DNA from: Candidatus Saganbacteria bacterium
Lineage (GTDB): Bacteria; Margulisbacteria; WOR-1; XYC2-FULL-46-14
Length of the DNA: 40,703 nucleotides
Assembly: GCA_013202975.1 (NCBI GenBank)
Contig: JABMQY010000090.1
Coordinates: forward strand, 1 to 40,703
Direction: 5' to 3'
This document shows positions 23,185 to 40,703 of the stretch, piece after piece (position 1 is the first letter of the stretch; the number at the start of each line of letters is the position of its first letter). A program made the position numbers and the translations under genes. The notes below the pieces were generated by a model, which searched no databases, was not told the origin of the DNA, and worked only from the letters and a program-made list of their open reading frames with translations.

Positions 23185-23213
23185 TTGACAAATATCCATG
23201 CAAAGAATATACT
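23185..23213 (+). promoter_or_regulatory. sigma70-type promoter of the CxxG precursor: TTGACA-N17-TATACT
   Basis: TTGACA 23185-23190, TATACT 23208-23213; the ORF track start at 23185 is the -35 box itself. Confidence 0.7.
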
Positions 23214-23244
23214 AAAAATTAATCTTATTATGGGAGGGTTAGAA

Positions 23245-23472
23245 GTGAAAAATAAGAAAACTAAGAAATGGCAAACTCCGGAATTGACTGGAATAATCGG
23301 AACAAAGACAGGCTCGGATTGCTCTTATGGAAACGGTGCTAACCCCGGTGATTGTTATACGGGAAGGCTTCCTCAATCGACCACTTGTCACGTAGGGGAA
23401 GACGCAGGTACCTCTTGTTTTTATGGAAACGATGCTCTAAACAGCTGTTCTACTGGAAACAACGTCGTATAA
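23245..23472 (+). CDS. candidate RiPP precursor with five CxxG repeats
   Basis: GTG start after GGGAGGG; MKNKKTKKWQTPELTGIIGTKTGSDCSYGNGANPGDCYTGRLPQSTTCHVGEDAGTSCFYGNDALNSCSTGNNVV. Confidence 0.8.
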   Translation: MKNKKTKKWQTPELTGIIGTKTGSDCSYGNGANPGDCYTGRLPQSTTCHVGEDAGTSCFYGNDALNSCSTGNNVV

Positions 23473-23513: not shown

Positions 23514-24395
23514 ATGAGAAAGAATGGGTTTTATCCTTATTACTACTTTGGTTTTAATCTCCATTCTGATTTTTCAATTGATGATTTAAAAAAGAATGGA
23601 AAGGAACCGCCAGATGTATGGATTTGTGCTAAAGAAAATCACTCCAAGAATGTTGACAAAACCTTATTAGATCTTATTCTGGAAAACCCTCAAAAGTTCT
23701 TCACAATTGAAGGCCTAAACAATGTATCCTTTGACTCAATAATACATAAGCTGGATAATTCCTGGAAAATACGTTTGTTAAATTATGCCTTATCTCACCT
23801 CTCATTAAAAAGAGGTATCATTTCTATCCACGGCTCAGCAATTAATTATAATAACAGAGGAATTATTTTTGCCGGTTCAAGCGGGAGCGGAAAATCAACC
23901 ATCGCTGCAGCTTTTTGCAAAATGGGACACAGTTATCTGTCCGATGATCGCACATATATTAACCGCCAAAATGGCAAAAACTATATTGCCACCGATAGAG
24001 GCAATCTAAAACTAAAAAAAGATGCCATTACCCATCTAAACATTAGCGCAAAAGAAACCGGGCAAGAAAAAGATAAATTTGAATTCGACTTTAAATCCTA
24101 CCGATCAAAAAAGACCAGGCTGGTTTTGTCCCGCATTTATTGTTTGCAACCGGACACAAACTGCAACAACATTTCTCTTTTTAGGATGCCAAGAATAGAC
24201 AGCTTAAAAACATTGATAAAAAATGATGGCACTGGATCTATTATACCTAGAAATGATTATAGTAACAAAATTTTCAATCTTTTTTACGACTTATCGATAC
24301 AAGTTCCCGTCATAAGCATAAAATATCCTAAAAGAAGTTCTTCAATCACAGAGCTGACTAAAAAAATTGAATTGGATTGCAGAAATTCTGTATAA
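23514..24395 (+). CDS. HPr kinase-like (HprK-fold) protein of a RiPP cluster
   Basis: Walker A FAGSSGSGKSTIAAAF; YLSDDRTYI. Confidence 0.8.
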   Translation: MRKNGFYPYYYFGFNLHSDFSIDDLKKNGKEPPDVWICAKENHSKNVDKTLLDLILENPQKFFTIEGLNNVSFDSIIHKLDNSWKIRLLNYALSHLSLKRGIISIHGSAINYNNRGIIFAGSSGSGKSTIAAAFCKMGHSYLSDDRTYINRQNGKNYIATDRGNLKLKKDAITHLNISAKETGQEKDKFEFDFKSYRSKKTRLVLSRIYCLQPDTNCNNISLFRMPRIDSLKTLIKNDGTGSIIPRNDYSNKIFNLFYDLSIQVPVISIKYPKRSSSITELTKKIELDCRNSV

Positions 24396-24402
24396 TATAA
24401 TA

Positions 24403-24852
24403 ATGTTTAAATCGGGCAATAATAAAGCAGTAAGATTTCTCAGGCTTTCTGTCAAAAAAAAATACCTGTGTCTTGAAGCATTGTTTTGGTTGTTTTTGTC
24501 TCGTTTCATTATTGTTATTTTCCCCCTAAAGTATTACAATAGGTTATTATTGGGTAAAGATATAACAAGTTTAAAGGATGTTTTTTTTAAGGTACAAGAT
24601 CCTGTAGTTGATGATATAGCCAGGGCAGTCAAAGTTTGCAATGAACACGTACCATGGCAAAATAGATGTTTGGCTGCTGCTGTTAGCGCAAAAATTATGC
24701 TGGCTTTGAGAGGACACAATTCAGTGTTATATGTAGGGATTAATAAAAAAAATGATACTTTCCTAGCCTCACACAGCTGGTTGAGATGCGGTGAAAAATT
24801 CGTCATTGGTGGAAAGGGAAAAGACTATGTTCTTGTCTCAAAATTTAGATAG
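24403..24852 (+). CDS. lasso-peptide B2-like transglutaminase-fold leader peptidase
   Basis: NRCLAAAVSAKIMLALRGHNSVLYVGINKKN...ASHSWLRCGEKFVIGG, Cys/His pattern of B2 proteins; ATG at 24403. Confidence 0.82.
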   Translation: MFKSGNNKAVRFLRLSVKKKYLCLEALFWLFLSRFIIVIFPLKYYNRLLLGKDITSLKDVFFKVQDPVVDDIARAVKVCNEHVPWQNRCLAAAVSAKIMLALRGHNSVLYVGINKKNDTFLASHSWLRCGEKFVIGGKGKDYVLVSKFR

Positions 24853-24870
24853 GAAAAAAGGAAAATTAAA

Positions 24871-25143
24871 ATGAAAAATGATACGATACCAAATATAAAC
24901 TCAAAAATTACCTTTAGAGAAGAATATGATGGTTGGGGGATAGTTTTTAGTCCGGATACTGGAGAGGTTTTTGGCCTTAATCCAGTAAGTGCCCTTATAT
25001 GGAAAAATATAAACGGTAAAGATACTATAGACAATATTCACAATAAGATCAAAAAGTTTTTTTTCGACTTACCGGAAGATGCTTTAAACCAAACAAAAAA
25101 ATACCTTGAGCAACTGTCAAAGAAAAAACTGATTACGCTCTAA
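24871..25143 (+). CDS. PqqD family RRE protein
   Basis: GWGIVFSPDTGEVFGLNPVSALIWKNINGKDTIDNIHNKI. Confidence 0.82.
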   Translation: MKNDTIPNINSKITFREEYDGWGIVFSPDTGEVFGLNPVSALIWKNINGKDTIDNIHNKIKKFFFDLPEDALNQTKKYLEQLSKKKLITL

Positions 25144-25147
25144 GACA

Positions 25148-26257
25148 ATGACTTTTTATGATACCCCTAAAAGTGTTGATCTGGCTATAACAGGTAGTTG
25201 CAATCAAAGATGCAAGTATTGCAGTCATTTTAATAGCCCGGGCGAAACAAAAAATGACCTCCCCACCGATCAATGGCTAAAATTCTTTGAAGAACTAAAA
25301 AACTGCCTGGTAATGAATGTATTTCTTCAGGGGGGTGAGCCTTTTTATCGAGAAGAGCTTGATAAAATCCTGCTGGGAATTATCAAAAACAAAATGCGCT
25401 TTGCCATTCTATCTAACGGGACATTAATAACAGACAAATGGGCAAGGTTCCTGAAAGATACCGAAAGATGCGATTATGTCCAGGTTTCCATTGATTCCTC
25501 TATTCCTTCACATCATGATGCCGCAAGAGGCCAAGGTTCATTTACCAAGGCAATAAACGGGATAAAGCTGCTGCAAAAATATAAAATTCAGGTTCTATGT
25601 AGAGTAACCATCTCAAAATATAATGTTTATGATCTGGAAGATTTAACAGAATTTTTACTCAAAGATATCGGACTAAAGCACTTTGGGGTAAGTTCTGCTT
25701 CATATCTTGGCCTTTGCATGAAAAACCAAGAAGAAATAGGTTTATCCGCCAAAGAGCGTTCAATCGCAATGGAAAGTTTACTAAAATTAAACAAAAAATA
25801 TAATAACAGAATAACAGCAACGGCGGGTCCGCTTGCAGAAGCTCAAATATGGCAAAAAATGATTGAAGCAAGAAAACAAGGACTGGACAACCTTTCAAGA
25901 GGAGGGTATTTAACTTCATGCAATGCTAACATTTCCAAAATAGCAGTTAAGGCAGATGGAACTTTGGTCCCCTGTATCCAAATGGGGCATATCGAACTAG
26001 GGAAAATTAATCAAGATTCACTTTATGATATTTGGCACAATAGCACAAAGTTAAATTCGTTCAGAAATAGAGATAAGATACCGCTCTCTAACATTAATTT
26101 CTGTCAAGATTGTGATTTTATTAACTATTGCCAGGGCGGCTGCCCGGCAACTGCACAGACTTATTGCCAAAGCGATTTTGTTCCGGATCCAGACATCTGC
26201 CTAAAAAGATTCCTTAAAGCTGGTGGAAAATTTCCTGATCAGAGTTTGTATGAATAG
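25148..26257 (+). CDS. radical SAM/SPASM peptide maturase
   Basis: CNQRCKYC; LQGGEPF; SPASM-type CQDCDFINYCQGGCPA. Confidence 0.9.
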   Translation: MTFYDTPKSVDLAITGSCNQRCKYCSHFNSPGETKNDLPTDQWLKFFEELKNCLVMNVFLQGGEPFYREELDKILLGIIKNKMRFAILSNGTLITDKWARFLKDTERCDYVQVSIDSSIPSHHDAARGQGSFTKAINGIKLLQKYKIQVLCRVTISKYNVYDLEDLTEFLLKDIGLKHFGVSSASYLGLCMKNQEEIGLSAKERSIAMESLLKLNKKYNNRITATAGPLAEAQIWQKMIEARKQGLDNLSRGGYLTSCNANISKIAVKADGTLVPCIQMGHIELGKINQDSLYDIWHNSTKLNSFRNRDKIPLSNINFCQDCDFINYCQGGCPATAQTYCQSDFVPDPDICLKRFLKAGGKFPDQSLYE

Positions 26258-27350
26258 TCCTTTTCTAAATGAATGGATAGCAGGATTTGGCCAATCCAAC
26301 TATTTGCCAATTAGCACTGCCTGCAACAGTGATTGCATCTTTTGCACCAACAAATATAATATTTTCCCTTGCAGAAAAGGTTTATTCCGTGACATAGAAG
26401 ACATCAAGCTCCAGCTAAGCTTAATGAAACAGCATCAATCCTCAATAAACCTATCTTCTATTTTGCCTGGTCGTCTACCAGAGGGAGAGGCTTTTCTTCA
26501 CCCTGATTTCTTTGAAATATTGGAAATAATAAGAAAAAAATACCCTTCAAACACGCTAAACATTTACACAAACGGTTCAACGCTAAGCAAGAATTTCCTA
26601 AAAAAATTGAGTAACTATAACCCAATTAAAATAGTAGTTTCGCTGCATACAACTAATGCTCAAAAATTGGCTTTTCTTTGCAACCGGCCTCTCTCTTTTG
26701 TGAAAAAAATAATAGAATCTATCCCTTGGATTAACAATTTCAAAATAGAACTAGCAGGTGCCCTCCTGCCTTTTCCCAAACTACTTGGCTGGGAAGATAT
26801 TGAAGAAACAATACAATATCTGTTATCTAACAATGCCAAAGAATTAATACTTCACCATCCTGGATATACCAAAAAAACGCCCAAAGAAATTATTAACATA
26901 ATAGATTGTGACCTTGATGAACTTACCGAATTTACCTGCAAATTAAGAAAGAAGTGCCAAGCAAAAGTCCATATCTATCCAGACATGAAAGCATCTATCG
27001 AAATTCCAATAAAATTCAAAAATGCTCTCTTGCTAACATCAGAAGCTGCCTACTCAAGGCTAAAAGAAAATGGATCAAATTCACATTATTTTTATGCGGT
27101 TAAAAACAATTCCTTTGGCGGAAATGTTACTGTTGGCGGGCTGCTCATGGTTAATGACTTTATCGAGGCAGGAAAAAAAGCCCTGAAGAAATTCCCAAAA
27201 ACAGAGATAATACTTTTGCCAAGCGCCCCTTTTGATGCGTTCAGACGGGATTTGTTATATACCCCAGCACAAAAAATAGTAGATAAATTAAAGAAAAATA
27301 CAGCTATAATAAATAATAAGGGGGAAATTATTTCATTATGCCAACATTAA
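26250..27350 (+). CDS. radical SAM protein with DUF512-like C-terminal region
   Basis: CNSDCIFC; C-terminus YAVKNNSFGGNVTVGGLLMVNDFIEAGKKAL...ILLPSAPFDAFRRDLL resembles DUF512. Confidence 0.72.
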   Translation: MNSPFLNEWIAGFGQSNYLPISTACNSDCIFCTNKYNIFPCRKGLFRDIEDIKLQLSLMKQHQSSINLSSILPGRLPEGEAFLHPDFFEILEIIRKKYPSNTLNIYTNGSTLSKNFLKKLSNYNPIKIVVSLHTTNAQKLAFLCNRPLSFVKKIIESIPWINNFKIELAGALLPFPKLLGWEDIEETIQYLLSNNAKELILHHPGYTKKTPKEIINIIDCDLDELTEFTCKLRKKCQAKVHIYPDMKASIEIPIKFKNALLLTSEAAYSRLKENGSNSHYFYAVKNNSFGGNVTVGGLLMVNDFIEAGKKALKKFPKTEIILLPSAPFDAFRRDLLYTPAQKIVDKLKKNTAIINNKGEIISLCQH

Positions 27351-28294
27351 TGTTAACCACAAAATGCCCTAATTCCTGTGATTGGTGTTTTGCCAAGTCA
27401 ATAATGCAGGATTATCAGAGCAAAAGTATTAGCGAAATAAAATGGGAAGATTTTTTGAGTGTAGTAGAATTTTTCAAACAATCAGGTAAAAAGAACATAA
27501 TCTTGTTAGGAGGGGAACCAACCCTGCACTCAAAATTTATGGACATTCTGACATATCTAAATAAAGAAAATTTTACTGTCTCGGTAGCAACCAACGGAAT
27601 AACAGATCGCTCATTAATTGACAAAGTTGCTGCCTCTAATTTTCAATCTCTTCGTTTTGGATTGAACAGCACAAGCTATTTCCACTATGATCAGGCAACA
27701 CAAAAAAAGGTTGATTATTTCTTATCTACAATAAGAATGCCCATCTTACTTTCTTATACAATATCCGAAAAAGATATAAACGACCCAAAACCCGAACCCA
27801 TACTGGATCGCGCATATCTAATAATGAGATATTCTTTGTCATCGCACATTCAATTTCAAATAGCTGTCCCTTCTTCTTCAAATAAATGTTTCATCCCATT
27901 CTCCCGTTATCGGGAAGTGTTCTCCCTGCTTAATAAATGGAACACTATCTTAAAAAGAAACAATATCACTTCGGGACTAGATTGCCATTCTTTCCCCAAA
28001 TGCGCCCTGCCTCCGGACGATAAACTCAAAAACCCACTTTATTTTAAATGCGCTAATTTCATGATAGATATCGGCCCGAATCTTGATGTCTGGCCCTGTT
28101 TTCCCCTCTCAGATCATAAGGTAAATTTAGCTGATTTTAAAAACCTTGCTCAAATACAAGAACATTTTAAAACAAAGCTATCTAACAGCTTAGTTTACGA
28201 TAAATCCTGCAGCAAATGCGGAGAAAAAAGAAACTGCGACGGAGGTTGTTTTGGCTTCTCAAAAACAAGAAATGAACTCGCAAAACAAAAATAA
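27338..28294 (+). CDS. radical SAM protein (SPASM-like C-terminus)
   Basis: CPNSCDWC; LLGGEPTLH; C-terminal CSKCGEKRNCDGGCFG. Confidence 0.85.
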   Translation: MPTLMLTTKCPNSCDWCFAKSIMQDYQSKSISEIKWEDFLSVVEFFKQSGKKNIILLGGEPTLHSKFMDILTYLNKENFTVSVATNGITDRSLIDKVAASNFQSLRFGLNSTSYFHYDQATQKKVDYFLSTIRMPILLSYTISEKDINDPKPEPILDRAYLIMRYSLSSHIQFQIAVPSSSNKCFIPFSRYREVFSLLNKWNTILKRNNITSGLDCHSFPKCALPPDDKLKNPLYFKCANFMIDIGPNLDVWPCFPLSDHKVNLADFKNLAQIQEHFKTKLSNSLVYDKSCSKCGEKRNCDGGCFGFSKTRNELAKQK

Positions 28295-29366
28295 ATTTCC
28301 ACTAAAAGGGATCTATTTCTATTTAACTGATGCCTGTAATCTAAAATGTCAGCACTGTTGGATTTCGCCTAAATATAATAAAGCCAAAAGCAACAAAGAA
28401 TTAAATTTTGATCTGTTTTGTAAAATAATAGAAGAGGCAAAGCCCCTTGGATTACGTTTTGTAAGACTGACCGGAGGAGAACCTCTATTACACTCACAAA
28501 TTGAAGAAATAATTAAACACGTGGCTAAAAACAACCTGGTACTAGACATTGAGTCCAATGGCACCTTAATCACTCCCAAATTCGCTAATCTGCTTGGCAG
28601 CATCAAAAAGAAAAACATCTCAATAAGTTTAGAAAGTACTGACCCCAAAAAACACTACTCTTTTAGAGGGGTATCAGGAAGTTTTAAGAAAACGATTACC
28701 GGAATCTTAAATCTAAAAAATGCCGGTGTGAGCCCAGAGATCATAACCTGCTTATCTAAAAACAATAAGAAACAAATCAAAAAACTAATTTATTTTGCGG
28801 AAAACTTAAAACTAAGGTCGTTAAGCTTCAAAATAATTAATCCTCTTGGAAGGGCCACAAAAATATTTTCACAAAACAATAACTTATCAATTGCAGAACT
28901 AATTCAATTGGGACAATGGGTTGAAGAACAACTGATTCCAAAATCAAAAATACCTGTTGCCTTTGGCTATCCCCCAGCTTTTAGCAAGATGAGTTCTTTG
29001 TGCAATCCACGAGAAATATCCTGCAATAGTTGCGGAATAAAAGGAATCATGGGGGTCCTATCAAGCGGAGAATACGCTCTCTGTGGAATCGGCCAATCAA
29101 TAAAAGAGTTGTGTTTTGGGAACGCAAAAACAAATACGCTTAGTAAGATTTGGCTCAATAGTAAGATAATAAACGAAATAAAAATAGGGCTTCCAAAAAA
29201 ACTTAAGGGAATTTGCGCAAAATGCGCAATGAAAGAGCTTTGCAAAGGGGCATGTCTTGCTCAAAATTATTATTTTAAAGAAGATTTGTGGGCCCCATTT
29301 TGGTTCTGCCAACAAGCCTATGACTTAGGCCTATTTCCAAAAAGCAGAATAATACCCGCCTCTTGA
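28272..29366 (+). CDS. radical SAM/SPASM peptide maturase
   Basis: CNLKCQHC; LTGGEPLL; C-terminal CAKCAMKELCKGACLAQNYY. Confidence 0.9.
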   Translation: MNSQNKNKFPLKGIYFYLTDACNLKCQHCWISPKYNKAKSNKELNFDLFCKIIEEAKPLGLRFVRLTGGEPLLHSQIEEIIKHVAKNNLVLDIESNGTLITPKFANLLGSIKKKNISISLESTDPKKHYSFRGVSGSFKKTITGILNLKNAGVSPEIITCLSKNNKKQIKKLIYFAENLKLRSLSFKIINPLGRATKIFSQNNNLSIAELIQLGQWVEEQLIPKSKIPVAFGYPPAFSKMSSLCNPREISCNSCGIKGIMGVLSSGEYALCGIGQSIKELCFGNAKTNTLSKIWLNSKIINEIKIGLPKKLKGICAKCAMKELCKGACLAQNYYFKEDLWAPFWFCQQAYDLGLFPKSRIIPAS

Positions 29367-29768: not shown

Positions 29769-29939
29769 TTAAGTCTCAGCTATAACACTGCAAGGAACAC
29801 AGCCGGGATCCAGTTCCCGACAAGTTGCATTATTAGAGGTTTCACCTGCTGGCTCAAACTTGCAGGTTACCAGAACAGACTCTTCGGATTTACCCCTTGT
29901 TAAAATATTCAACATCGGCTTTTTCCATTCTTTTTTCAT
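29769..29939 (-). CDS. candidate RiPP precursor, WxxPxL-leader family (56 aa, not in ORF track)
   Basis: MKKEWKKPMLNILTRGKSEESVLVTCKFEPAGETSNNATCRELDPGCVPCSVIAET; strong G-rich RBS; leader shared with three others. Confidence 0.85.
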   Translation of the reverse strand: MKKEWKKPMLNILTRGKSEESVLVTCKFEPAGETSNNATCRELDPGCVPCSVIAET

Positions 29940-29982
29940 ACCCCCCCCTTTATTTACTTTAAATAATAATGATACTGTTCAG

Positions 29983-30011
29983 ATTCTATTATAGTCTTTT
30001 CTATTTGTCAA
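29983..30011 (-). promoter_or_regulatory. sigma70-type promoter TTGACA-N17-TAGAAT for the 29769-29939 precursor
   Basis: -35 at 30011-30006, -10 at 29988-29983 on the minus strand. Confidence 0.6.
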
Positions 30012-30122
30012 CGGGCAAAGGAAAAGTAATTGTAATATAAAAAAAAGGAATATGGTTTAAAACTAACCTACTTGCGTCTATAAATTGAATAAGGTAAAAT
30101 AAAAACTTACCCTACTAAATTA

Positions 30123-32072
30123 ATGGAATACACCCAATCTAAAAAATACGAAAAAATACCACGCTTACCATTTGAGGCAAAGGTAGATTTAACCTATCGC
30201 TGTAACAACAACTGCCGGCACTGCTGGCTCAGAATCCCGGCTGATTCGGAAGAAAAAAAGAGAGAACTTTCTTTTGAAAAAATAAAAGATATTATTTGCC
30301 AAGCTAGAAAACTCGGTTGTCGCAGATGGTCTATCTCTGGCGGAGAACCGATGCTTAGGCCAGACTTTGAAGAAATTTTTGATTATATTACCAGCCATTC
30401 TATGTCCTATTCCCTTAACAGCAACGGAACATTAATTACCCCAATGATTGCAAAATTGATGAAGAAAAGAGGGACTAAGATGATCGCAGTTTATGGAGCA
30501 ACAGCAGAAGTGCACGATCATATCACTCGCAACCCTGGTTCATTTGACGCTCTCATGCGCGGATTTGCTTATTTAAAAGAAGCAGGAGCCGGATTTATAG
30601 TTCAACTTATTCCCATGAAGGATAACTACCACCAGTTTGATCAGATGGTCAAGTTGGCTAAATCTTTAAGTAAACATTATAGAGTAGGAGCGCCATGGCT
30701 TTATTTGTCTGCTTATAGGGACGCAAAAGCAAATGAAGAGATTAAACAGCAGAGGCTTTCCTCCAAAGAAGTGATCGGGCTAGATCAGCCAAGCATCCCT
30801 GCCGAAGATAAATTGGCTGCTGATCATGGATGCGGTTGTTTGGAAAAAGGCGACGATCGTCTTTTTTCTGCTTGTTTAAAGGCAAGAAGGGATTTTAGCG
30901 TGGATCCCTACGGTCAAATGACCTTTTGCGGTTTTATCAAAGACCCTGCCCTGCTTTATGATTTAAGAAAAGGAACAGTTGAAGATTGCTGGGAAAACTT
31001 TATCCCCTCTCTGGCAGATAAAATTAGGGGGGGGCAGGAATATTTGGAAAATTGCGGGTCCTGTGACTTAAAATCTGATTGCCGCTGGTGTCCTGTTTAT
31101 GGATATTTAGAATACGGCCGGTTTTCGGCAAAGGTAGAACATCTTTGTGAAGTAGCAAAAGAAAAAATGAAATACAAGGAAAATTGGATAAAAAACCATC
31201 GCACCTTTTACCAAATTGCCGGCATCACCATTCAAATAGACTCGGATATTCCAATTAAAGAAGAAACCATTCACTCCAAATTAAATCCTTTTAAAGTTGA
31301 TGGGCCTGGGAAGGACACAATTTATCTTAATCACCATTTTTCCTTGCCTGATTTGGCCGGAAAGGATTTAGGAAAGAGAATTTATTCTAAAACTCCGTGG
31401 TCGATCTACAAAAAAGATGATTCCTGGATATATCTAGGTATTTCAGCAACAAAAGGAGAAAAAAGACTACATCGAGTAGCAATTTTCAACAAAGATCATA
31501 CTCGCGCCAGTATCTATCATGCAGATGATAATATGATTAAGAAAGGAAACCTTACTTCTCTCACATTGTTTCCTACTGATCAAATCCTCGTTGGACGCAT
31601 TCTGGCTGACCGCGATGGTTGCTATATGCACTCTTGTGGTATTGTTCTTGATGGTAAGGGATATTTGTTTGTTGGTCATTCCGAAGCAGGAAAATCAACC
31701 ACCAGCTTAATGATGAAAAAGCAAGGCGGTAAAATTCTTTGTGATGATCGGATAATTATCCGTAAAAAGCCCGAAGGTTTTCGTATTTATGGTACATGGA
31801 GCCATGGGGATGTCCCTGACATTTCTCCTGATTCAGCCCCCCTGCACGCGATCCTCTTTTTGAAGCAAAGTGAGGAAAATGTATTAATTCCGATGTATGA
31901 TAAGTTGGAAGTGGTAAGGCGGCTCTTGGCCTGCCTGATTAAACCTTTTGCCTGTGCTGACTGGTGGGAAAAAGAACTGACTCTAATAGAGAAAATCGCG
32001 AAAGAAATCCCCTGCCACCGCATGTTGTTTGATAAGAGCGGAGAGATCGTAGAACAGATTAGGGTTATGTAG
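30123..32072 (+). CDS. radical SAM/SPASM-HPr kinase-like fusion protein, copy 1
   Basis: CNNNCRHC; SGGEPML; SPASM-type CGSCDLKSDCRWC; C-terminal P-loop LFVGHSEAGKSTT and LCDDRIIIR...GTWSHGD. Confidence 0.88.
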   Translation: MEYTQSKKYEKIPRLPFEAKVDLTYRCNNNCRHCWLRIPADSEEKKRELSFEKIKDIICQARKLGCRRWSISGGEPMLRPDFEEIFDYITSHSMSYSLNSNGTLITPMIAKLMKKRGTKMIAVYGATAEVHDHITRNPGSFDALMRGFAYLKEAGAGFIVQLIPMKDNYHQFDQMVKLAKSLSKHYRVGAPWLYLSAYRDAKANEEIKQQRLSSKEVIGLDQPSIPAEDKLAADHGCGCLEKGDDRLFSACLKARRDFSVDPYGQMTFCGFIKDPALLYDLRKGTVEDCWENFIPSLADKIRGGQEYLENCGSCDLKSDCRWCPVYGYLEYGRFSAKVEHLCEVAKEKMKYKENWIKNHRTFYQIAGITIQIDSDIPIKEETIHSKLNPFKVDGPGKDTIYLNHHFSLPDLAGKDLGKRIYSKTPWSIYKKDDSWIYLGISATKGEKRLHRVAIFNKDHTRASIYHADDNMIKKGNLTSLTLFPTDQILVGRILADRDGCYMHSCGIVLDGKGYLFVGHSEAGKSTTSLMMKKQGGKILCDDRIIIRKKPEGFRIYGTWSHGDVPDISPDSAPLHAILFLKQSEENVLIPMYDKLEVVRRLLACLIKPFACADWWEKELTLIEKIAKEIPCHRMLFDKSGEIVEQIRVM

Positions 32073-32108
32073 TATAATTTATTCAGATTAATTATACAGG
32101 AGCCTGTC

Positions 32109-32282
32109 ATTAGAAAGACATGGAAGAAGCCGAAATTAATTGTCTTATTTCGTTCAAACAAAGAAGAACAGGTGTTAGCAAATTGCAAAAATTTTGGAGA
32201 AGCCCCTGGGCCTAATTTGTCCTGGTGGGACTGTCAAGGAACAGGTTGTGGCACCGTCTGTGCGGATATTGGCGTTTCTTGA
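32109..32282 (+). CDS. candidate RiPP precursor, WxxPxL-leader family, apparent ATT start (57 aa, not in ORF track)
   Basis: AGGAG-N6-ATT; (M)RKTWKKPKLIVLFRSNKEEQVLANCKNFGEAPGPNLSWWDCQGTGCGTVCADIGVS; no ATG/GTG/TTG in frame back to the stop at 32070. Confidence 0.78.
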   Translation: MRKTWKKPKLIVLFRSNKEEQVLANCKNFGEAPGPNLSWWDCQGTGCGTVCADIGVS

Positions 32283-32288
32283 TATGTT

Positions 32289-32453
32289 ATGAAAAAAACA
32301 TGGAAACGACCGCAATTAAAAATATTGACGCGAAGTAAGCCTGAAGAGAGCGTCCTAAGTTACTGTAAAATGCAATTTGGACAAGATGGTGGTCCCGGTT
32401 GGGGTCTTGGGTGCAGATTTAGTCCTGACTGCGTTATTCTTTCTGTGTCTTAA
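32289..32453 (+). CDS. candidate RiPP precursor, WxxPxL-leader family (54 aa, not in ORF track)
   Basis: MKKTWKRPQLKILTRSKPEESVLSYCKMQFGQDGGPGWGLGCRFSPDCVILSVS. Confidence 0.85.
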   Translation: MKKTWKRPQLKILTRSKPEESVLSYCKMQFGQDGGPGWGLGCRFSPDCVILSVS

Positions 32454-32460
32454 TTACATT

Positions 32461-33633
32461 ATGAAAAAATACATTTCTAAGACGGACATCTCAGGCTATA
32501 ATCTCTTTAAAAAGTCTAAGCCTCTGATTTACAAACTAGACATCGAACTCACTGAACGCTGCAACAATAATTGTATCCACTGCAGTATAAATCTACCGGA
32601 AAACGATCTTTCTGCCAAACAAAAAGAACTATCTACTGATGAGTTGAAGAGAATCATTAAAGAAGCTGCTGATTTAGGGGCTATGACGATCCGTTTTACC
32701 GGCGGAGAACCTCTCTTGAGAGAAGATTTTAAAGAGCTATATCTTTTCACCCGTAAACTGGGAATCAAAGTAATGCTCTTTACCAACGCCCGATTGATTA
32801 CTCCCGAACTGGCTGAATTATTAGCAAAGTATCCACCAGGAGAAAAAATAGAAGTTACGGTTTACGGTATGCATAAGGAGTCCTATGAGGCAGTTACTTG
32901 CGCAAAAGGATCGTTTGAGGAATTTTGGCGTGGAGTCAATCTATTGCTTAATAAGAAGATTCCTTTTATTGTAAAGGCTGCTTTGCTCCCTCCAAATAAA
33001 CATGAAATGGAAGAATTTGAAGCCTGGGCAGCTACCATTCCCTGGATGGACAAAAACCCTTCTTACTCGATGTTTTTTGGCCTCCGATGTAGAAGGGATG
33101 ATGCGGTAAAAAACCGGCTGATACAAAAAAACCGTCTTTCTCCTGAGGACGGATTGAAAATATTAACCAGGGACAAAGATAAATACAATAAGGGCATGAA
33201 AGAGTTTTGCTCCAAGTTTACGCGGCCGCCGGGCACAAAGCTATTCGCCTGCGGTGCGGGGAAAGGGGGAGGATGCGTAGATGCATACGGTAAATTACAG
33301 CTCTGCCTTACGCTTAGACACCAGGATACAATACATGATATTAAAAACGGAACACTCAAGGATGCCATTCAAATTTTTTTCCCTAAAGTACAGGCAACAA
33401 AAGCGAAAAATCCTGACTATCTTAAACGCTGTGCAAAATGTTTTTTAAAAGGTCTTTGTGAGCAGTGTCCGGCCAAATCTTGGATAGAAAGCGGCGACCT
33501 GGACACACCGGTAGAATATCTTTGTGAGGTTACCCACGCACAGGCGGAATATTTAGGGTTGATTGAGAAGGGGGAGAAGGCGTGGGAGGTAGAGGATTGG
33601 GTGGAAAGAATTAATAATTTTACTGCTAACTGA
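32461..33633 (+). CDS. radical SAM/SPASM peptide maturase (track start 32377 is false)
   Basis: CNNNCIHC; FTGGEPLL; SPASM-type CAKCFLKGLCEQCPA; ATG at 32461 directly after precursor stop. Confidence 0.9.
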   Translation: MKKYISKTDISGYNLFKKSKPLIYKLDIELTERCNNNCIHCSINLPENDLSAKQKELSTDELKRIIKEAADLGAMTIRFTGGEPLLREDFKELYLFTRKLGIKVMLFTNARLITPELAELLAKYPPGEKIEVTVYGMHKESYEAVTCAKGSFEEFWRGVNLLLNKKIPFIVKAALLPPNKHEMEEFEAWAATIPWMDKNPSYSMFFGLRCRRDDAVKNRLIQKNRLSPEDGLKILTRDKDKYNKGMKEFCSKFTRPPGTKLFACGAGKGGGCVDAYGKLQLCLTLRHQDTIHDIKNGTLKDAIQIFFPKVQATKAKNPDYLKRCAKCFLKGLCEQCPAKSWIESGDLDTPVEYLCEVTHAQAEYLGLIEKGEKAWEVEDWVERINNFTAN

Positions 33634-33680
33634 GATTTTGGTATAATCATATATGATTAGATTATAAAGGAGTGCTTTTT

Positions 33681-33986
33681 ATGAATTTAGCTTTGGATTC
33701 TATTTGTATCCCTTCAGATAAAATAGTAGCAAGAGAAATCGAAGGCGAACTTATCATTGTCCCACTGGTTTCCGGCATTGGTGATATGGAAGACGAACTC
33801 TTTACTTTAAACGAAACCGGAAGGGAAATATGGAAAAGACTGGACGGAAAAAAAAACCTGAATAACATTACGGATGAATTAACAAATGAATTTAAAGCCC
33901 CAAGAGAAGAGATAGAAAAAGATGTTTTGGGATTGACCGAAGAATTAATTAAAAGGCAAATGATAGCTGTTGCTTCTGCCGCTTAA
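33681..33986 (+). CDS. PqqD family RRE protein
   Basis: AAAGGAG RBS; GDMEDELFTLNETGREIWKRLDGKKNLNNITDEL. Confidence 0.85.
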   Translation: MNLALDSICIPSDKIVAREIEGELIIVPLVSGIGDMEDELFTLNETGREIWKRLDGKKNLNNITDELTNEFKAPREEIEKDVLGLTEELIKRQMIAVASAA

Positions 33987-33991
33987 TTTCT

Positions 33992-34477
33992 GTGAGTATA
34001 GATCAAGAAAAAAAGAATATCTCTCTTTATAGTCCTCATTTAATCGAACTGATGCAGGCAGTTTTTGATAAAGGCCTACCCTTTCGCTTTCAAGCAAAAG
34101 GCGGGAGCATGTCTCCTTTTATTAAAGATAGTGATATTCTTACGCTGGCCCGCTTTTCCGGCGACTATTCAATTGGCGATGTAGCGGCTTTTGTCCGTCC
34201 TGAAGGAAAAAAACTGGTTGTACATAGAATAGTCGCAAAAAAAAACAACGCTTATTTAATAAAAGGCGACAATGGTTTTGGGCAAGACAGCCTTATCCCC
34301 AAAGAAAACATTTTAGGCCGGGTAATTAAAGTGGATAGAGGAACAAAAAATATATCATTTGGCCTTGGCCCAGAAAAACATCTGATTGCTTTCTTAAGCC
34401 GAACAAACCTCCTGCCTGTTTTGTTTTTTTTACCTAGAATGTCTTTATCTCTTTTAAGGAAAATTAGAAATTTCTAG
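33992..34477 (+). CDS. S24/S26 signal peptidase-like protein
   Basis: GGSMSPFIKDSDILTLAR; LVVHRIVAKKNNAYLIKGDNG; GTG start. Confidence 0.8.
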   Translation: MSIDQEKKNISLYSPHLIELMQAVFDKGLPFRFQAKGGSMSPFIKDSDILTLARFSGDYSIGDVAAFVRPEGKKLVVHRIVAKKNNAYLIKGDNGFGQDSLIPKENILGRVIKVDRGTKNISFGLGPEKHLIAFLSRTNLLPVLFFLPRMSLSLLRKIRNF

Positions 34478-34618
34478 GTTGTGCAGAAAAAGAACCAAAG
34501 ACTATTTTTGCAGGGTAGCCCATGCCGGGGCAAAAGCTATAAAACAATCCCTACTACCTACACATTAAGGCATAGTTTTCGATTATACATCTTTAAAGAA
34601 TTATAGTAAAATAAACCG

Positions 34619-36157
34619 ATGAACACTTTTTTAAAAGATGCATTTAAATATAATGATGATGGCCTAGATAAAATAATTCCCCCGTCGGAGACAATAAAAA
34701 AGGCAACCCTTGCCCTGGGTAATGCCAAAATGCCAATCTCATTCGAAATAGAAAAGATAGACTATATAAACAAGCCCAAAATACCATCTTTTGTTTGCAA
34801 AATCCAAAGAGCAACCGGGCAGGCATACGGATTGCAGCAGAAATACTCTTGGGGAAAAGGAGTCACCCAAACAGCAGCTCGGGCCAGCGCAATAATGGAA
34901 TTAATAGAAAGAGCAAGCTGTAGCAGTTTCTTGAAAAATGAGAACAATTTCAAAACCGGCAGTTATTCTTATATAAAGAAATGGGGGAACCCTTTTAAGG
35001 ATTCAATCCTGGCTTGTTCAGAAAAATTTAGGCGGGATCTTTTTCTCTGCAATCTGCTTAAAAAAGCATGTCTTAAATGGACTAACTCCTTTTCTCTTAC
35101 AAAAAACAAAAATATTCTCTTTCCTCTTGATTGGTTTGCTGCCTTTCAAGGAACTAACGGCTATGCCGCCGGAAATTCAATAGAAGAAGCAACCCTGCAG
35201 GGATTATGCGAAGCGGTGGAGCGCTATGCCATCTCCACTATAATGAAAAAGAAGTATAAAACCCCAGCAATCAATATTGATTCCATTAATAATCGTACTG
35301 CCAAAGAAATAATTACAAAGCTTAAGCGGGCTGGAATAAAATTATATATAAAGGATTTCTCACTTGACCTTGAAATCCCCACCATTGCGGTAATTATAAA
35401 CGATCCAAAATCAAAAGATCATAAATACTATTACACTGCAGGCACTTCTATAAATAGGAACCTGGCACTAGTGCGAGCCCTTAATGAGGTCGCACAGATT
35501 AGAAACCAAATAGTATATGGGGCAAAGAAGCTTGGAATAACGGTTGCTGCTGCTTGGTGTTTTCCGGATTTTAAGGACTTTGCAAAGAATAAATTTCTTA
35601 TTGAAAATAGCAAAAAAATAGATTTTTCTGACTTGCCAACTTATTCTAATAGAAACATTAAAAAAGAGATCGAAGTAGTTGTAAGCAAATTAAAGGATAA
35701 AGGCCTTGAGGTAATAGTTACAGACACAACACATCATATTCTAAAAATACCAACGGTGATTGTGACTATTCCAGGAACTTTTACTGTTTCTTCTAACTCC
35801 ATCAACCCGTATTTAGTTTTAATAGAACACAATGAAAAAATGCAAAACCACCAAAATAATATTAAAATTTTTAAAAGATACTTCCAAATGAATCCGGAAG
35901 AAAAAAAGAAAGGAAACTTACTGTATTCCTTTGGAAAACAGCATGAGAAAACTGGAAAGTATAAGCAGGCAATCAAAATATTTAATGAGACAACTTCTTT
36001 TTGCAATAAAGACAATCCAGGATGGATCAATATGCAGATGATATACTGTGCATTAATAAGGTGCTATTCAAATCTATCAAAACCAGAGGAAGTTTTGAAA
36101 ATTTACAGAAAACTAAAAAAACTGCAACAAAACACACCCCAACAAGTAGTAGAATAA
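34619..36157 (+). CDS. YcaO-domain protein with C-terminal TPR-like region
   Basis: TQTAARASAIMELIERAS; GTNGYAAGNSIEEATLQGLCEAVERYAIS; C-terminal GKQHEKTGKYKQAIKIFNE TPR-like. Confidence 0.88.
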   Translation: MNTFLKDAFKYNDDGLDKIIPPSETIKKATLALGNAKMPISFEIEKIDYINKPKIPSFVCKIQRATGQAYGLQQKYSWGKGVTQTAARASAIMELIERASCSSFLKNENNFKTGSYSYIKKWGNPFKDSILACSEKFRRDLFLCNLLKKACLKWTNSFSLTKNKNILFPLDWFAAFQGTNGYAAGNSIEEATLQGLCEAVERYAISTIMKKKYKTPAINIDSINNRTAKEIITKLKRAGIKLYIKDFSLDLEIPTIAVIINDPKSKDHKYYYTAGTSINRNLALVRALNEVAQIRNQIVYGAKKLGITVAAAWCFPDFKDFAKNKFLIENSKKIDFSDLPTYSNRNIKKEIEVVVSKLKDKGLEVIVTDTTHHILKIPTVIVTIPGTFTVSSNSINPYLVLIEHNEKMQNHQNNIKIFKRYFQMNPEEKKKGNLLYSFGKQHEKTGKYKQAIKIFNETTSFCNKDNPGWINMQMIYCALIRCYSNLSKPEEVLKIYRKLKKLQQNTPQQVVE

Positions 36158-36161
36158 AATT

Positions 36162-38147
36162 ATGAGCATGTACGAATATATAGATTACAACAAAGAAAAG
36201 AATCTTCCATCGATTCCCCAATATGGAAAAATTGACCTTACTTACCGTTGCAATAACAATTGCCGCCATTGCTGGTTAAGAATTGCGCCTGATGCCAAAG
36301 AAAAACAGAACGAACTTTCATTTAATGAAATTATAAGGGTTGTAACCGACGCCAGAAAAATGGGATGTCGCAATTGGGCAATCTCTGGAGGAGAGCCCTT
36401 ACTAAGACAAGACTTTGCCGAAATATTTGAACTTATTACTAGTAAATCAAAGTCTTATTCTCTTAACACAAATGGCACATTAATTACTTCCCAAATTGCC
36501 CGATTGATAAAAAATGAAAAAGGAAACGTAATTGTTTCTATCTATGGAGCAACAGCAGAAGTTCATGATAATATCACGCGCAATAAAGGCTCATTTGAAG
36601 CAGCAATGAGAGGACTTTCCTGTCTAAAAGAAAAAGCTGTTAACTTTGTGGTTCAGATTGTCCCCCTGAGAGACAACTATCACCAGCTTAAAGAGATGAT
36701 TGTTATTGCCAGATCCTTTAACCCTCATTATAAACTCAATACTTCATGGATGTATCTTTCTGCCAGCAGGGATGAGCAGATTAATCAGCAAATTTTGAAC
36801 CAGAGATTAGAAAAAAACGATTTAATCAAACATTTTAAATCCAATTTAACTTTTCACGAAGAAACATCCTGCAATTGTAATCAAGTAAAAAATGATGATC
36901 GGCTTTATGCTTCCTGTATTAAAGGATTAAGCGGCTTTCATATCGATCCCTACGGTTATATGGCTCTTTGCCCGTTTGTTAAAGATAATGCTCTTCGATA
37001 TGATCTTAGAAAGGGAACTTTTGAAGAATGTTGGGATAGCTTTATCCCTTCTTTAGCAGACAAGATCCGGGGCGGCCAGGAGTACCTGGACAATTGCGGT
37101 TCCTGCGATCTGCTTAGTGATTGCCGCTGGTGCCCGGCCTTTAGTTTTTTGGAACATGGCAGACACTCGGCAAAAGTTGATCATTTGTGTGATTTAGCAC
37201 GAGAAAAAAAGCTCTTTAATAAAAATTGGATAAAAAAACATCGCCGTTATTTTCGTGTTGCTGATATTACTATCCAAATAGAAATGGATATTCCTTTTTC
37301 GGAAGATTTTTTCAAACCTAAATTCAAGATTTTTGAGGTGGACGGACCAGGAGAAGATACGGTTAGTATCAGCCACCATTTTTCTTTGCCCGATCTTGAA
37401 GGATTCGATTTGGGACAAAAGATTTATCAAAAGCCTCCCTGGGCTATATATAAGAAAAACAGCTCCTGGATATATCTGTGTATTTCCCCAAATCCAGAAA
37501 ACAGTATTCAGGGAGTTGTTGTTTTTAACCGTGACCATTCAAAGGCCAGGATCTACCATGATAGCGCAAAAAAACCTCAGGTTTTAGAAGGAAACTGGCC
37601 CTCGATAACATTTTTACCTTCGGATCAAATTATTATTGCCCGTTTGCTGGCCGATCGGCAAGGATGTTATTTCCATTCAAGCGGATTAATCCTTAATGGC
37701 AAGGGATTTCTTTTTGCCGGCTATTCTGGAGCGGGCAAATCGACCATAAGCCTTATGCTACAAAACCATGCAGAAATTTTGTGTGATGACAGAATTATTG
37801 TCAAAAAGCAAAAAAAAGGATTTCATATCTTCGGCACCTGGAGCCACGGGGACGTGCCGGATATATCGGCAAAGTCGATCCCATTACACGCAATCATGTT
37901 TTTGGAACAAGCACAAGATAATCGATTGGTTCAAATCACCGACCGAAAAGAAATTAGAAAAAGATTGCTTGCCTTTTTAATAAAACCGCTGGTGACAAAA
38001 GATTGGTGGGAAAAGATGCTAACCCTGATTGAAAAAATTAGTTTTGAGGTACCCTGTTATATTATGAAATTTGATAAGAGCGGAGCAATTGTCAAAGAAT
38101 TAAAGTCTTTAGCAAAAGATACGAAGAAGGCGGGAGATCAGATATAA
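36162..38147 (+). CDS. radical SAM/SPASM-HPr kinase-like fusion protein, copy 2
   Basis: CNNNCRHC; SGGEPLL; CGSCDLLSDCRWC; FAGYSGAGKSTI; LCDDRIIVK; colinear with 30123-32072. Confidence 0.88.
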   Translation: MSMYEYIDYNKEKNLPSIPQYGKIDLTYRCNNNCRHCWLRIAPDAKEKQNELSFNEIIRVVTDARKMGCRNWAISGGEPLLRQDFAEIFELITSKSKSYSLNTNGTLITSQIARLIKNEKGNVIVSIYGATAEVHDNITRNKGSFEAAMRGLSCLKEKAVNFVVQIVPLRDNYHQLKEMIVIARSFNPHYKLNTSWMYLSASRDEQINQQILNQRLEKNDLIKHFKSNLTFHEETSCNCNQVKNDDRLYASCIKGLSGFHIDPYGYMALCPFVKDNALRYDLRKGTFEECWDSFIPSLADKIRGGQEYLDNCGSCDLLSDCRWCPAFSFLEHGRHSAKVDHLCDLAREKKLFNKNWIKKHRRYFRVADITIQIEMDIPFSEDFFKPKFKIFEVDGPGEDTVSISHHFSLPDLEGFDLGQKIYQKPPWAIYKKNSSWIYLCISPNPENSIQGVVVFNRDHSKARIYHDSAKKPQVLEGNWPSITFLPSDQIIIARLLADRQGCYFHSSGLILNGKGFLFAGYSGAGKSTISLMLQNHAEILCDDRIIVKKQKKGFHIFGTWSHGDVPDISAKSIPLHAIMFLEQAQDNRLVQITDRKEIRKRLLAFLIKPLVTKDWWEKMLTLIEKISFEVPCYIMKFDKSGAIVKELKSLAKDTKKAGDQI

Positions 38148-39310
38148 CAAGTTATTCCGAAAAACTTGAATACAGTAAGTTTTCTCTGCAGCAGAAGAAA
38201 AAAAATCTTTTTTTAACCAGGCTGGATATGCAGCTTACTGAGCGCTGCAATAATAATTGCATACACTGCTGTATTAACCAACCAGCAGATGATTTATTAC
38301 TAAAGGAAAAAGAGCTTTCTACAAAAGAAATAAAGAATATTCTACAAGAGGCCGCAACTTTAGGATATTTGACAGTTAGATTTACCGGCGGGGAACCATT
38401 GTTGCGGGATGATTTTTCGGAATTGTATGTTTTTGCCAGAAAGCTCGGGATTAAGGTAATGCTTTTTACCAATGCCACACTGATTACCCCTCAATTAATT
38501 GAACTATTTGCCCGGATCCCGCCACTTGAAAAAATTGAGGTTTCTGTATATGGAATGCACAAAAAGTCGTATGAAGCAGTTTCAAGGGTTTCTGGAAGTT
38601 ATGAGCCTGCCTGGCGCGGAATAAACTTACTACTTGAGAATAAGATTCCTTTTATAGTAAAGGGCTCACTTCTCCCACCCAACAAAAAAGAAATTGATGA
38701 ATTTAGAGCATGGGCAAAAAAAATTCCCTGGATGATTGAAGATCCGCTTTGCTCTATGTTTTTTGACCTTCGCTGCAGAAGGGATTCGAAAGAAAAGAAC
38801 CAGATGATTAAAAAGCTTAGGCCTTCTGCAAAGGAAGGATTAACAGAGCTAACATGCGAAAAAGAAGGATACAAAAAAAGGATGAAAGAATTTTGTTCAA
38901 AATTTATTGGTCCAAAAGGAGACACCCTCTTTGTCTGTGGCGTTGGTGTTGGCGGAGGTTCGGTCGACCCATATGGATATTATTTCCCCTGTTTGGTACT
39001 TATGTCTCCTGAAACGGGATACTATCTCAAAGAAGGCTCTCTTAAAGATGCCCTAGAATGTTTCTCTCCAAAAATACGAAAAATCAAGGCAACCAATCCA
39101 GCCTACTTATCCCGCTGCGCCCGCTGTTTTTTAAAAGGGCTATGCGATCAATGTCCTGCAAAATCTTATATGGAAAATGGAACACTAGATACTCCGGTAG
39201 AGTATCTTTGTGAAATTACTCACCTTCAAGCCAGCTATCTGGGGTTGATCAATAAGGGAGAAAAGACCTGGGAAGTTAAGGATTGGCAGGAGAGAATCAG
39301 CAAATTTTAA
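38144..39310 (+). CDS. radical SAM/SPASM peptide maturase; start uncertain (first ATG at 38228 truncates strand beta-1)
   Basis: CNNNCIHC; FTGGEPLL; CARCFLKGLCDQCPA; open frame upstream of 38228 reads DITSYSEKLEYSKFSLQQKKKNLFLTRLDMQLTERC, paralogous to the 32461 N-terminus. Confidence 0.75.
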   Translation: MTSYSEKLEYSKFSLQQKKKNLFLTRLDMQLTERCNNNCIHCCINQPADDLLLKEKELSTKEIKNILQEAATLGYLTVRFTGGEPLLRDDFSELYVFARKLGIKVMLFTNATLITPQLIELFARIPPLEKIEVSVYGMHKKSYEAVSRVSGSYEPAWRGINLLLENKIPFIVKGSLLPPNKKEIDEFRAWAKKIPWMIEDPLCSMFFDLRCRRDSKEKNQMIKKLRPSAKEGLTELTCEKEGYKKRMKEFCSKFIGPKGDTLFVCGVGVGGGSVDPYGYYFPCLVLMSPETGYYLKEGSLKDALECFSPKIRKIKATNPAYLSRCARCFLKGLCDQCPAKSYMENGTLDTPVEYLCEITHLQASYLGLINKGEKTWEVKDWQERISKF

Positions 39311-39498
39311 GTTGTTGAATAAGTTTCACACCAAACGTTACAACCAGTTGATGGAACGATACAAGTTGTGTCCCAAGAGTTGGAAGCCATAAGCGGCCCA
39401 CTGTTCCATTTACAGATAACCAAAACATTTTCACCAATCTCACTTCTTATCAAAACTACAAGTTTTGGTTTTTCCCATTTATCTTTTTTATTTTTCAT
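39307..39498 (-). CDS. candidate RiPP precursor, WxxPxL-leader family (63 aa)
   Basis: MKNKKDKWEKPKLVVLIRSEIGENVLVICKWNSGPLMASNSWDTTCIVPSTGCNVWCETYSTT; start ATG 39498, not 39534. Confidence 0.85.
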   Translation of the reverse strand: MKNKKDKWEKPKLVVLIRSEIGENVLVICKWNSGPLMASNSWDTTCIVPSTGCNVWCETYSTT

Positions 39499-39506
39499 TA
39501 CAATTA

Positions 39507-39551
39507 ATTTTACACCACCATCACTTGATGTCAAGTAGTATATGTTATAAA
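39507..39551. promoter_or_regulatory. divergent promoter region with palindrome ACTTGATGTCAAGT (39523-39536)
   Basis: Minus TTGACA-N16-TAAAAT toward precursor; plus TTGATG-N15-TATAAA toward PqqD; both overlap the palindrome. Confidence 0.5.
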
Positions 39552-39580
39552 ATTACTCAACTACCAGTTTGGAGGTGTTT

Positions 39581-39892
39581 ATGAAACAAAAGATAAGTCC
39601 TGATATTGTTTGCTCGATCTCAGAAGATGTAGTTGCCCGCAACATTGAGGGTGAGATGCTAATTGTCCCATTAACAAAAGGAATTGGGGATATGGAAGAT
39701 GCTCTCTATACTCTAAATAAAACCGGCATGGCTATCTGGGCATGCATTGATGGAAAAAAGAAAATTAAAGATATTGTTGCTGAACTATCAGAAAAGTTTG
39801 AAGCATCCTCATCTGAGCTCGAACAGGATGTCTTTGGATTTGCTGACGAATTACTCAAAAGAGGGATCCTGATTGAGTCCTCAAAACACTGA
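39581..39892 (+). CDS. PqqD family RRE protein
   Basis: GDMEDALYTLNKTGMAIWACIDGKKKIKDIVAELSEKF, paralog of 33681-33986. Confidence 0.85.
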   Translation: MKQKISPDIVCSISEDVVARNIEGEMLIVPLTKGIGDMEDALYTLNKTGMAIWACIDGKKKIKDIVAELSEKFEASSSELEQDVFGFADELLKRGILIESSKH

Positions 39893-39993
39893 CACCCCTT
39901 CATTTATTGAGAACATGGCTGAGCAAAAACATGCTCCTACCCTCTTTTCTGTTTATCCCAAGAATCATCGGTCTCAAATAAAGAGGATTAATA

Positions 39994-40703
39994 ATGGATA
40001 ACTCTTTTACATCATCAAAACCGCTGCCTGAATTTGATCTTTGGGAAAAGATGAAACAAAATAAAAAAAGAAAGGTTATCTCTTTTTCTCTCGAAATTAC
40101 CGCCCGCTGTAATAACGATTGCACCCACTGTTATATTAATCTTCCAGCGGGAGATAAAAAAGCTAAGAATAAAGAGCTCTCATTAAAACAAATATCCGAT
40201 ATAGCAGATCAAGCGGTGTCTCTGGGTGCGCTCTGGTGTTTACTCTCCGGCGGAGAACCGCTTTTGCGTGAGGACTTCATTGATATCTATTTGATTCTTA
40301 AAAAGAAAGGGCTCTTAGTGTCTGTCTTTACTAATGCCTGCTTAATAACTCAAAAACACACTGACTTATTTAAAAAGTATCCTCCAAGGGATGTTGAAGT
40401 AACGGTTTATGGCATTACCAAAGAAACCTACGAAAAAATCAGCCGCAAACCTGGGTCATTCGATGCTTTTACGCGTGGGCTAAGCATTCTTAGGGAAACC
40501 GGCGTCCGGATCCGTTTTAAAACCATGGCGCTCCGGTCTAATCATCATGAACATTCCAAAATCGCAGAATTTTGCAGAGAAAGAACCAAAGATTATTTCC
40601 GCTTTGATCCCCAGCTCCACCTGCGTTTTGATAGAGACCTCAAACGCAATGAGTTAATCAAATCAGAACGTCTGACTCCGGAAGAGGTTGTTGCGGTTGA
40701 AAA
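39994..40703 (+). CDS. radical SAM peptide maturase, partial (runs off window end)
   Basis: MDNSFTSSKPLPEFDLWEKMKQNKKRKVISFSLEITARCNNDCTHCYINLP; LSGGEPLLREDF. Confidence 0.85.
   Translation, partial: MDNSFTSSKPLPEFDLWEKMKQNKKRKVISFSLEITARCNNDCTHCYINLPAGDKKAKNKELSLKQISDIADQAVSLGALWCLLSGGEPLLREDFIDIYLILKKKGLLVSVFTNACLITQKHTDLFKKYPPRDVEVTVYGITKETYEKISRKPGSFDAFTRGLSILRETGVRIRFKTMALRSNHHEHSKIAEFCRERTKDYFRFDPQLHLRFDRDLKRNELIKSERLTPEEVVAVE

Follow-up and report, generated by a model that had tools for sequence, protein, structure and literature searches.

Positions 1 to 40,703 of contig JABMQY010000090.1 (Candidatus Saganbacteria, assembly GCA_013202975.1), hereafter called the window, carry at 23245-23472 a small open reading frame (ORF), followed on the same strand by a tight run of seven genes with small gaps or overlaps between them (23514-29366, Table 1). 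The original prediction, made from the letters of the window, described a 75-residue peptide read from a GTG codon, with five CxxG units spaced 11, 11, 10 and 10 residues apart, and translation of the ORF yields this very product: VKNKKTKKWQTPELTGIIGTKTGSDCSYGNGANPGDCYTGRLPQSTTCHVGEDAGTSCFYGNDALNSCSTGNNVV. It holds five cysteines in all, every one of them within a CxxG. The four radical S-adenosylmethionine (SAM) genes that had been placed downstream, in the same operon, are found in this run as well. Starting instead at TTG 23185 would lengthen the peptide by 20 residues, yet this start overlaps the promoter-like site.

Table 1. Features of the CxxG-repeat ORF and of the genes downstream
Feature	Position	Strand	Basis or remark
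Putative sigma-70-like promoter, TTGACA-17-TATACT	23185..23213	+	11/12 consensus matches; consensus only
Ribosome binding site GGGAGGG, 6 bases ahead of GTG	23232..23238	+	Read directly
Precursor leader, residues 1-25, with WQTPEL recognition motif at residues 9-14	23245..23319	+	Motif common to other precursors
Core: CSYG, CYTG, CHVG, CFYG, CSTG, then stop	23320..23472	+	Translation, shuffles, family pattern
HprK-like protein, ScmC position	23514..24395	+	PF07475 at its cut-off; TIGR04249 23 bits (cut-off 125)
Transglutaminase-like leader peptidase, lasso B2 type	24403..24852	+	NF033537 62.9 bits (cut-off 33); PF13471
PqqD-like recognition protein, ScmD-like	24871..25143	+	TIGR04248 85.9 bits (cut-off 100); PF05402
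ScmE radical SAM/SPASM enzyme	25148..26257	+	TIGR04250 502 bits (cut-off 400); PF04055, PF13186
Extra radical SAM enzyme 1, weak DUF512-like end	26223..27350	+	PF04055; start may be ATG 26250
Extra radical SAM enzyme 2, short SPASM-like Cys motif	27338..28294	+	PF04055
ScmF radical SAM/SPASM enzyme	28251..29366	+	TIGR04251 432 bits (cut-off 400); PF04055, PF13186; start may be ATG 28272

The question arises as to whether this ORF is open by chance, or encodes an unrelated Cys-rich metal-binding peptide that merely lies beside the operon. That no Pfam or NCBIfam model matched it would fit such a view (tblastn against phages gave no match either). However, shuffling the residues of the peptide gave five CxxG motifs in 5 of 200,000 trials, and leader, period and unit are common to 55 other precursors, which are almost confined to genomes containing ScmE. 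Moreover, no other window ORF of 30 to 200 residues holds more than one CxxG. Given the shuffles, the co-occurrence with ScmE and the family pattern, both versions of this explanation were rejected as very improbable. A mis-binned contig is also unlikely, the tetranucleotide profile correlating at 0.989 with that of the genome's other contigs.

The operon is related to a kind known from annotation, SynChlorMet (SCM), for which models TIGR04248 to TIGR04252 describe ScmD, ScmC, ScmE, ScmF and the precursor ScmA, respectively; we found no paper on SCM in the open literature. Membership in this computationally defined family had been overlooked in the original prediction. On sequence grounds, we class the operon as an SCM cassette of divergent form, marked by a B2-type peptidase and two additional radical SAM enzymes: ScmE and ScmF exceed their cut-offs, ScmC and ScmD stay below theirs (TIGR04248 being nevertheless the top model for the PqqD-like protein), and two unassigned radical SAM genes lie between ScmE and ScmF. 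In common with SCM are the ScmE and ScmF matches, the PqqD-like and HprK-like genes, and a CxxG-repeat precursor with a YxxP-type leader. The window differs by the two extra genes, by the lack of a TIGR04252 match, by a peptidase of the B2 and not the SpI type, and by a leader that reads WxxP. In the ScmF tree, no terminal branch of the core SCM clade is longer than that of the window protein (1.81, against a tree median of 0.32), and the genome's other ScmF groups with those of two other genomes (G058 and G050).

For neither radical SAM enzyme between ScmE and ScmF does any family score above cut-off. Across 76 genomes of the phylum, the first has just one homologue, a distant one, which lies outside SCM cassettes (L216 7751-8905 in G052, about 26-27% identity) and adjoins glycosyltransferase-like and other radical SAM genes, and the second has no orthologue in the same 76 genomes. 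Among relatives of solved structure, the sactisynthase SkfB comes closest to ScmE, to which the PapB family model is a distant match (81 bits, cut-off 340). An AlphaFold model of the window ScmE has a pLDDT of 66.6, with a poor SPASM region. No relative of solved structure was found for the B2-type protein.

SCM-type cassettes elsewhere were collected by ScmE similarity, among phylum relatives, Desulfobacteraceae and other deltaproteobacterial records, Omnitrophota, Acidobacteria, Chloroflexi and Sabulitectum. Many of them contain at least one short ORF with the anatomy of the window peptide: a leader with the motif [Y/W]xxPx[L/I/V/M/A], a first core cysteine usually 17 to 21 residues past the aromatic residue, and a core of 2 to 9 units of the form C-x-x-G-x-x-[A/P], with a period of 10 to 11 residues. 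According to the original prediction, the peptide is a precursor on which the neighboring radical SAM enzymes act; homologues without periodic cysteines were to count against this. The homologues keep the periodicity and vary in the number of units, which supports the proposal. Under a strict definition (at least three CxxG behind the leader motif), the pattern occurs in 16 of 34 SCM loci, compared to 2 of 69 other radical SAM loci. Several of the SCM loci that it misses correspond to contig ends, CxxxG variants or unlinked genes, and one of the two non-SCM positives is plainly a true precursor, with five units (L061 13159-13437, a deltaproteobacterial record). As it lies near a ScmE relative of 28% identity, the precursor type reaches beyond strict SCM cassettes.

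Two other observations were made in this collection. In L143, L144 and L145 (G299, G253 and G202), the ScmE open frames span about 490 to 512 residues, and the extra N-terminus in L144 reads as PqqD-like; ScmD and ScmE thus appear fused in some genomes, and this apparent fusion supports a joint action of the two proteins. In L233 (1363-1725, G232), a CxxG-repeat precursor has a YEPPTI leader and, after it, a cleavage site of the double-glycine type, DLDQVSGG; cassettes thus do not all seem to remove the leader in the same way.

Among the phylum genomes, precursors are present in 6 of 6 with ScmE above cut-off, against 1 of the 70 others (Fisher 3e-8). The latter genome, G068, encodes a ScmE-like protein of 226 bits, and the remaining 69 are free of precursors. 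A profile built from 16 precursors and run over genomes detected 28 in the window's own genome, counting the window peptide, and 17 in G050. A motif scan of the stretches fetched from the own genome gave 29 outside the window, so the total amounts to some 28 to 30 ScmA-like CxxG-repeat precursors, on about 19 contigs (L158-L162, L196-L209). Mostly these are lone genes adjoining what read as housekeeping genes (putative aminoacyl-tRNA synthetases, cysteine desulfurase, RadA), apart from a tandem pair on contig C33 and pairs on C35, C40 and C79. The C33 tandem precursors differ by 17 substitutions, all of which spare the repeat cysteines and the glycines at +3, which chance may explain. The same genome contains part of a canonical cassette on C10 (the end of ScmE, ScmF and the first part of a ScmC-like gene); other ScmC-like genes lie on C28 and C46. 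We infer that this second, canonical cassette serves the orphan precursors in trans. Unlinked precursors also exist in other phyla, but at 1 to 4 per genome checked. As far as we could check in the open literature, so large a dispersed set of precursors is undescribed.

We therefore favor the reading in which the ORF encodes a ScmA-like precursor of a divergent SCM-type cassette for a ribosomally synthesized and post-translationally modified peptide (RiPP), with Cys-directed modification by radical SAM enzymes; we give it a probability of roughly 70%. That the ORF is a precursor at all appears nearly certain. Such an anatomy supplies a concrete substrate for SCM cassettes, so far named in NCBI models. 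Precursor anatomy, cassette, family conservation and co-occurrence are read from the sequences, whereas every catalytic step proposed here is inferred. The PqqD-like ScmD would bind the WxxPxL leader and present the core to ScmE and ScmF, which, aided by the two extra radical SAM enzymes, would modify it unit by unit; the lasso-B2-type peptidase would remove the leader afterwards. The HprK-like protein may phosphorylate Ser or Thr residues. A mainly phosphorylated peptide, with this kinase as the chief modifier, as in LPP and the phosphorylated lasso peptides, can also be considered, given that a HprK-like protein, a SpI-like peptidase and a RiPP recognition element (RRE) are common to canonical SCM cassettes and LPP clusters (PMC13381572). 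However, radical SAM enzymes, two to four of them, form the core of the cassette, and a regular Cys-Gly unit is useless to a kinase, which makes this scenario improbable.

What could the radical chemistry be? In the 56 precursors, Gly stands at +3 of 284 of the 336 core cysteines and at +4 of 39 more (96% together). The +3 column contains 1.45 bits over background, and the next best, +6, 0.78 bits (Ala 40%, Pro 14%). The window units (CSYGNGA, CYTGRLP, CHVGEDA, CFYGNDA and CSTGNNV) follow the family preference at both positions, with A, P, A, A and V at +6. Each CxxG could close a thioether from the Cys sulfur to the Gly alpha-carbon, i to i+3, so that the core would carry four-residue rings in a row, none nested in another. 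We propose rings of this size because streptosactin has exactly such a ring, Cys31-Gly34, next to a second sactionine, Cys25-Ser28, both made by a SPASM enzyme (PMC8172795). By analogy, Cys-Gly C-alpha thioethers would be the most likely chemistry, with a probability slightly below one half. The original prediction had wavered between ranthipeptide-like and sactipeptide-like crosslinks; should the near-invariant Gly at +3 be the acceptor, only its alpha-carbon is available, so that a ranthipeptide link to it is excluded and the product would be sactipeptide-like. The prediction that follows from the anatomy is a loss of 2 Da per CxxG unit, with the bond to Gly.

The same precursor and cassette are compatible with two other chemistries, both of which we hold to be rather unlikely. 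Thioethers could be made to an acceptor other than Gly, by a ranthipeptide-like beta or gamma link, for instance to a Ser, Thr or Asn at +4 or +5, or into the following unit, with the Gly at +3 acting as a turn residue. Positions +4 and +5 are indeed rich in these three residues, but no single acceptor-type residue is conserved there (0.3 bits each, against 1.45 for the Gly). Alternatively, the reaction may not be thioether formation at all, but C-C bonds, epimerization or oxidation, with the cysteines serving as thiols, disulfides or metal ligands. SPASM enzymes catalyze many reactions, the repeat core of TvgA was shown to be cyclopropanated (PMC9062424), and four radical SAM enzymes in the window make more than one reaction likely. 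Yet one Cys per unit, together with its Gly, is the most constant feature of the family, so that the Cys is probably the reaction site.

Several points weigh against the reading of an ScmA-like precursor with Cys-directed modification, or against parts of it. TIGR04252, the ScmA model, does not match the window precursor even at E 10; at E 0.1, it matched 7 of 20 scanned precursors, and none of 13 phylum matches reached its cut-off. The low scores of the window ScmC and ScmD against their NCBIfam models count in the same direction, as do the two extra radical SAM enzymes, which have no assigned role. The profile found no precursor in 6 of 24 other SCM genomes. As for the chemistry, the +3 Gly may serve to form a turn, and the reaction of a SPASM enzyme is not fixed by sequence similarity. 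Finally, the open literature yielded no experiment on an SCM product.

The leader motif may carry a further distinction. The original prediction had seen in it an echo of the WxxPxL of a second peptide family of the window. The motif W/YxxPxL is present, but it is a general RiPP-leader recognition motif, with no special link to the neighboring family. The latter lies in 29769-40703, with WkkPxLxxLtRxkPEEsVL leaders (29769-29939 on the minus strand, 32289-32453 on the plus strand) and radical SAM, PqqD-like, signal-peptidase-like and YcaO genes; in another phylum, a like peptide and radical SAM genes 54-55% identical to those of the window stand beside an SCM cassette (L144 986-5534, G253). The motif [Y/W]xxPx[L/V/I/F/A] is bound by discrete RREs, and in Bacillota, Tyr versus Trp decides RRE binding: LPP, with a SpI-like peptidase, has YxxP, and paeninodin, with a B2 peptidase, has WxxP (PMC13381572). 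Of the 29 own-genome precursors outside the window, 27 have Tyr at this place, one Phe and one Trp, whereas the window precursor has Trp. The canonical cassette L033 and the own-genome SCM group on C46 have a SpI-like peptidase and a strong ScmC (253-272 bits). By analogy with Bacillota, the pairing of YxxP with SpI and of WxxP with B2 within one genome suggests the insulation of two related lines. In a tentative extension, which we hold to be possible but doubtful, two insulated radical SAM RiPP lines would share one repeat scaffold: the canonical YxxP/SpI SCM cassette would act in trans on the 28 to 30 or so dispersed precursors, and the WxxP/B2 cassette of the window, with its two extra radical SAM enzymes, would be a specialized offshoot. 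Either line would make strings of unnested thioether rings between Cys and the Gly alpha-carbon, which would amount to a sactipeptide class with tandem rings and with substrates encoded throughout the genome. The WxxP/YxxP split inside one genome offers a natural setting in which to test the leader discrimination known from Bacillota.

Among known systems, radical SAM/SPASM maturases are encoded with the precursor in sactipeptides, and the window operon has such enzymes in ScmE and ScmF, but this feature is common to many radical SAM RiPP classes. Streptosactin (GggA/GggB) resembles the window system by its CxxG unit, its small unnested rings and its SPASM maturase (PMC8172795), but it has two rings, one radical SAM enzyme and no named PqqD-like protein, and the ring chemistry in the window is only a proposal. 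Freyrasin (PapA/PapB) and other ranthipeptides also have repeated Cys units per precursor and a radical SAM/SPASM maturase; their links are, however, Cys-Asp, whereas the window family conserves Gly, not Asp, with a period of 10 to 11 residues. LPP and the paeninodin-like lasso peptides share the [Y/W]xxPx[L] leader, a discrete RRE, a HprK-like protein and a B2 or SpI-like peptidase (PMC13381572). Of these lasso-peptide features, the window operon has the B2-type leader peptidase (NF033537 above cut-off) and the PqqD-like RRE (PF05402); in contrast to lasso clusters, it encodes radical SAM enzymes, and none of its seven genes is a lasso macrolactam cyclase (the asparagine-synthetase-like C protein). 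Lastly, prochlorosins (ProcA/ProcM) combine many precursors with a single promiscuous enzyme, ProcM (PMC10783134). The likeness lies in many precursors for probably few enzymes, action in trans in the window genome being presumed; their lanthionine chemistry, Nif11-type leaders and unrelated sequence set them apart. The dispersed precursors of this one genome would then be the radical-chemistry counterpart of the prochlorosin logic of few enzymes and many substrates.
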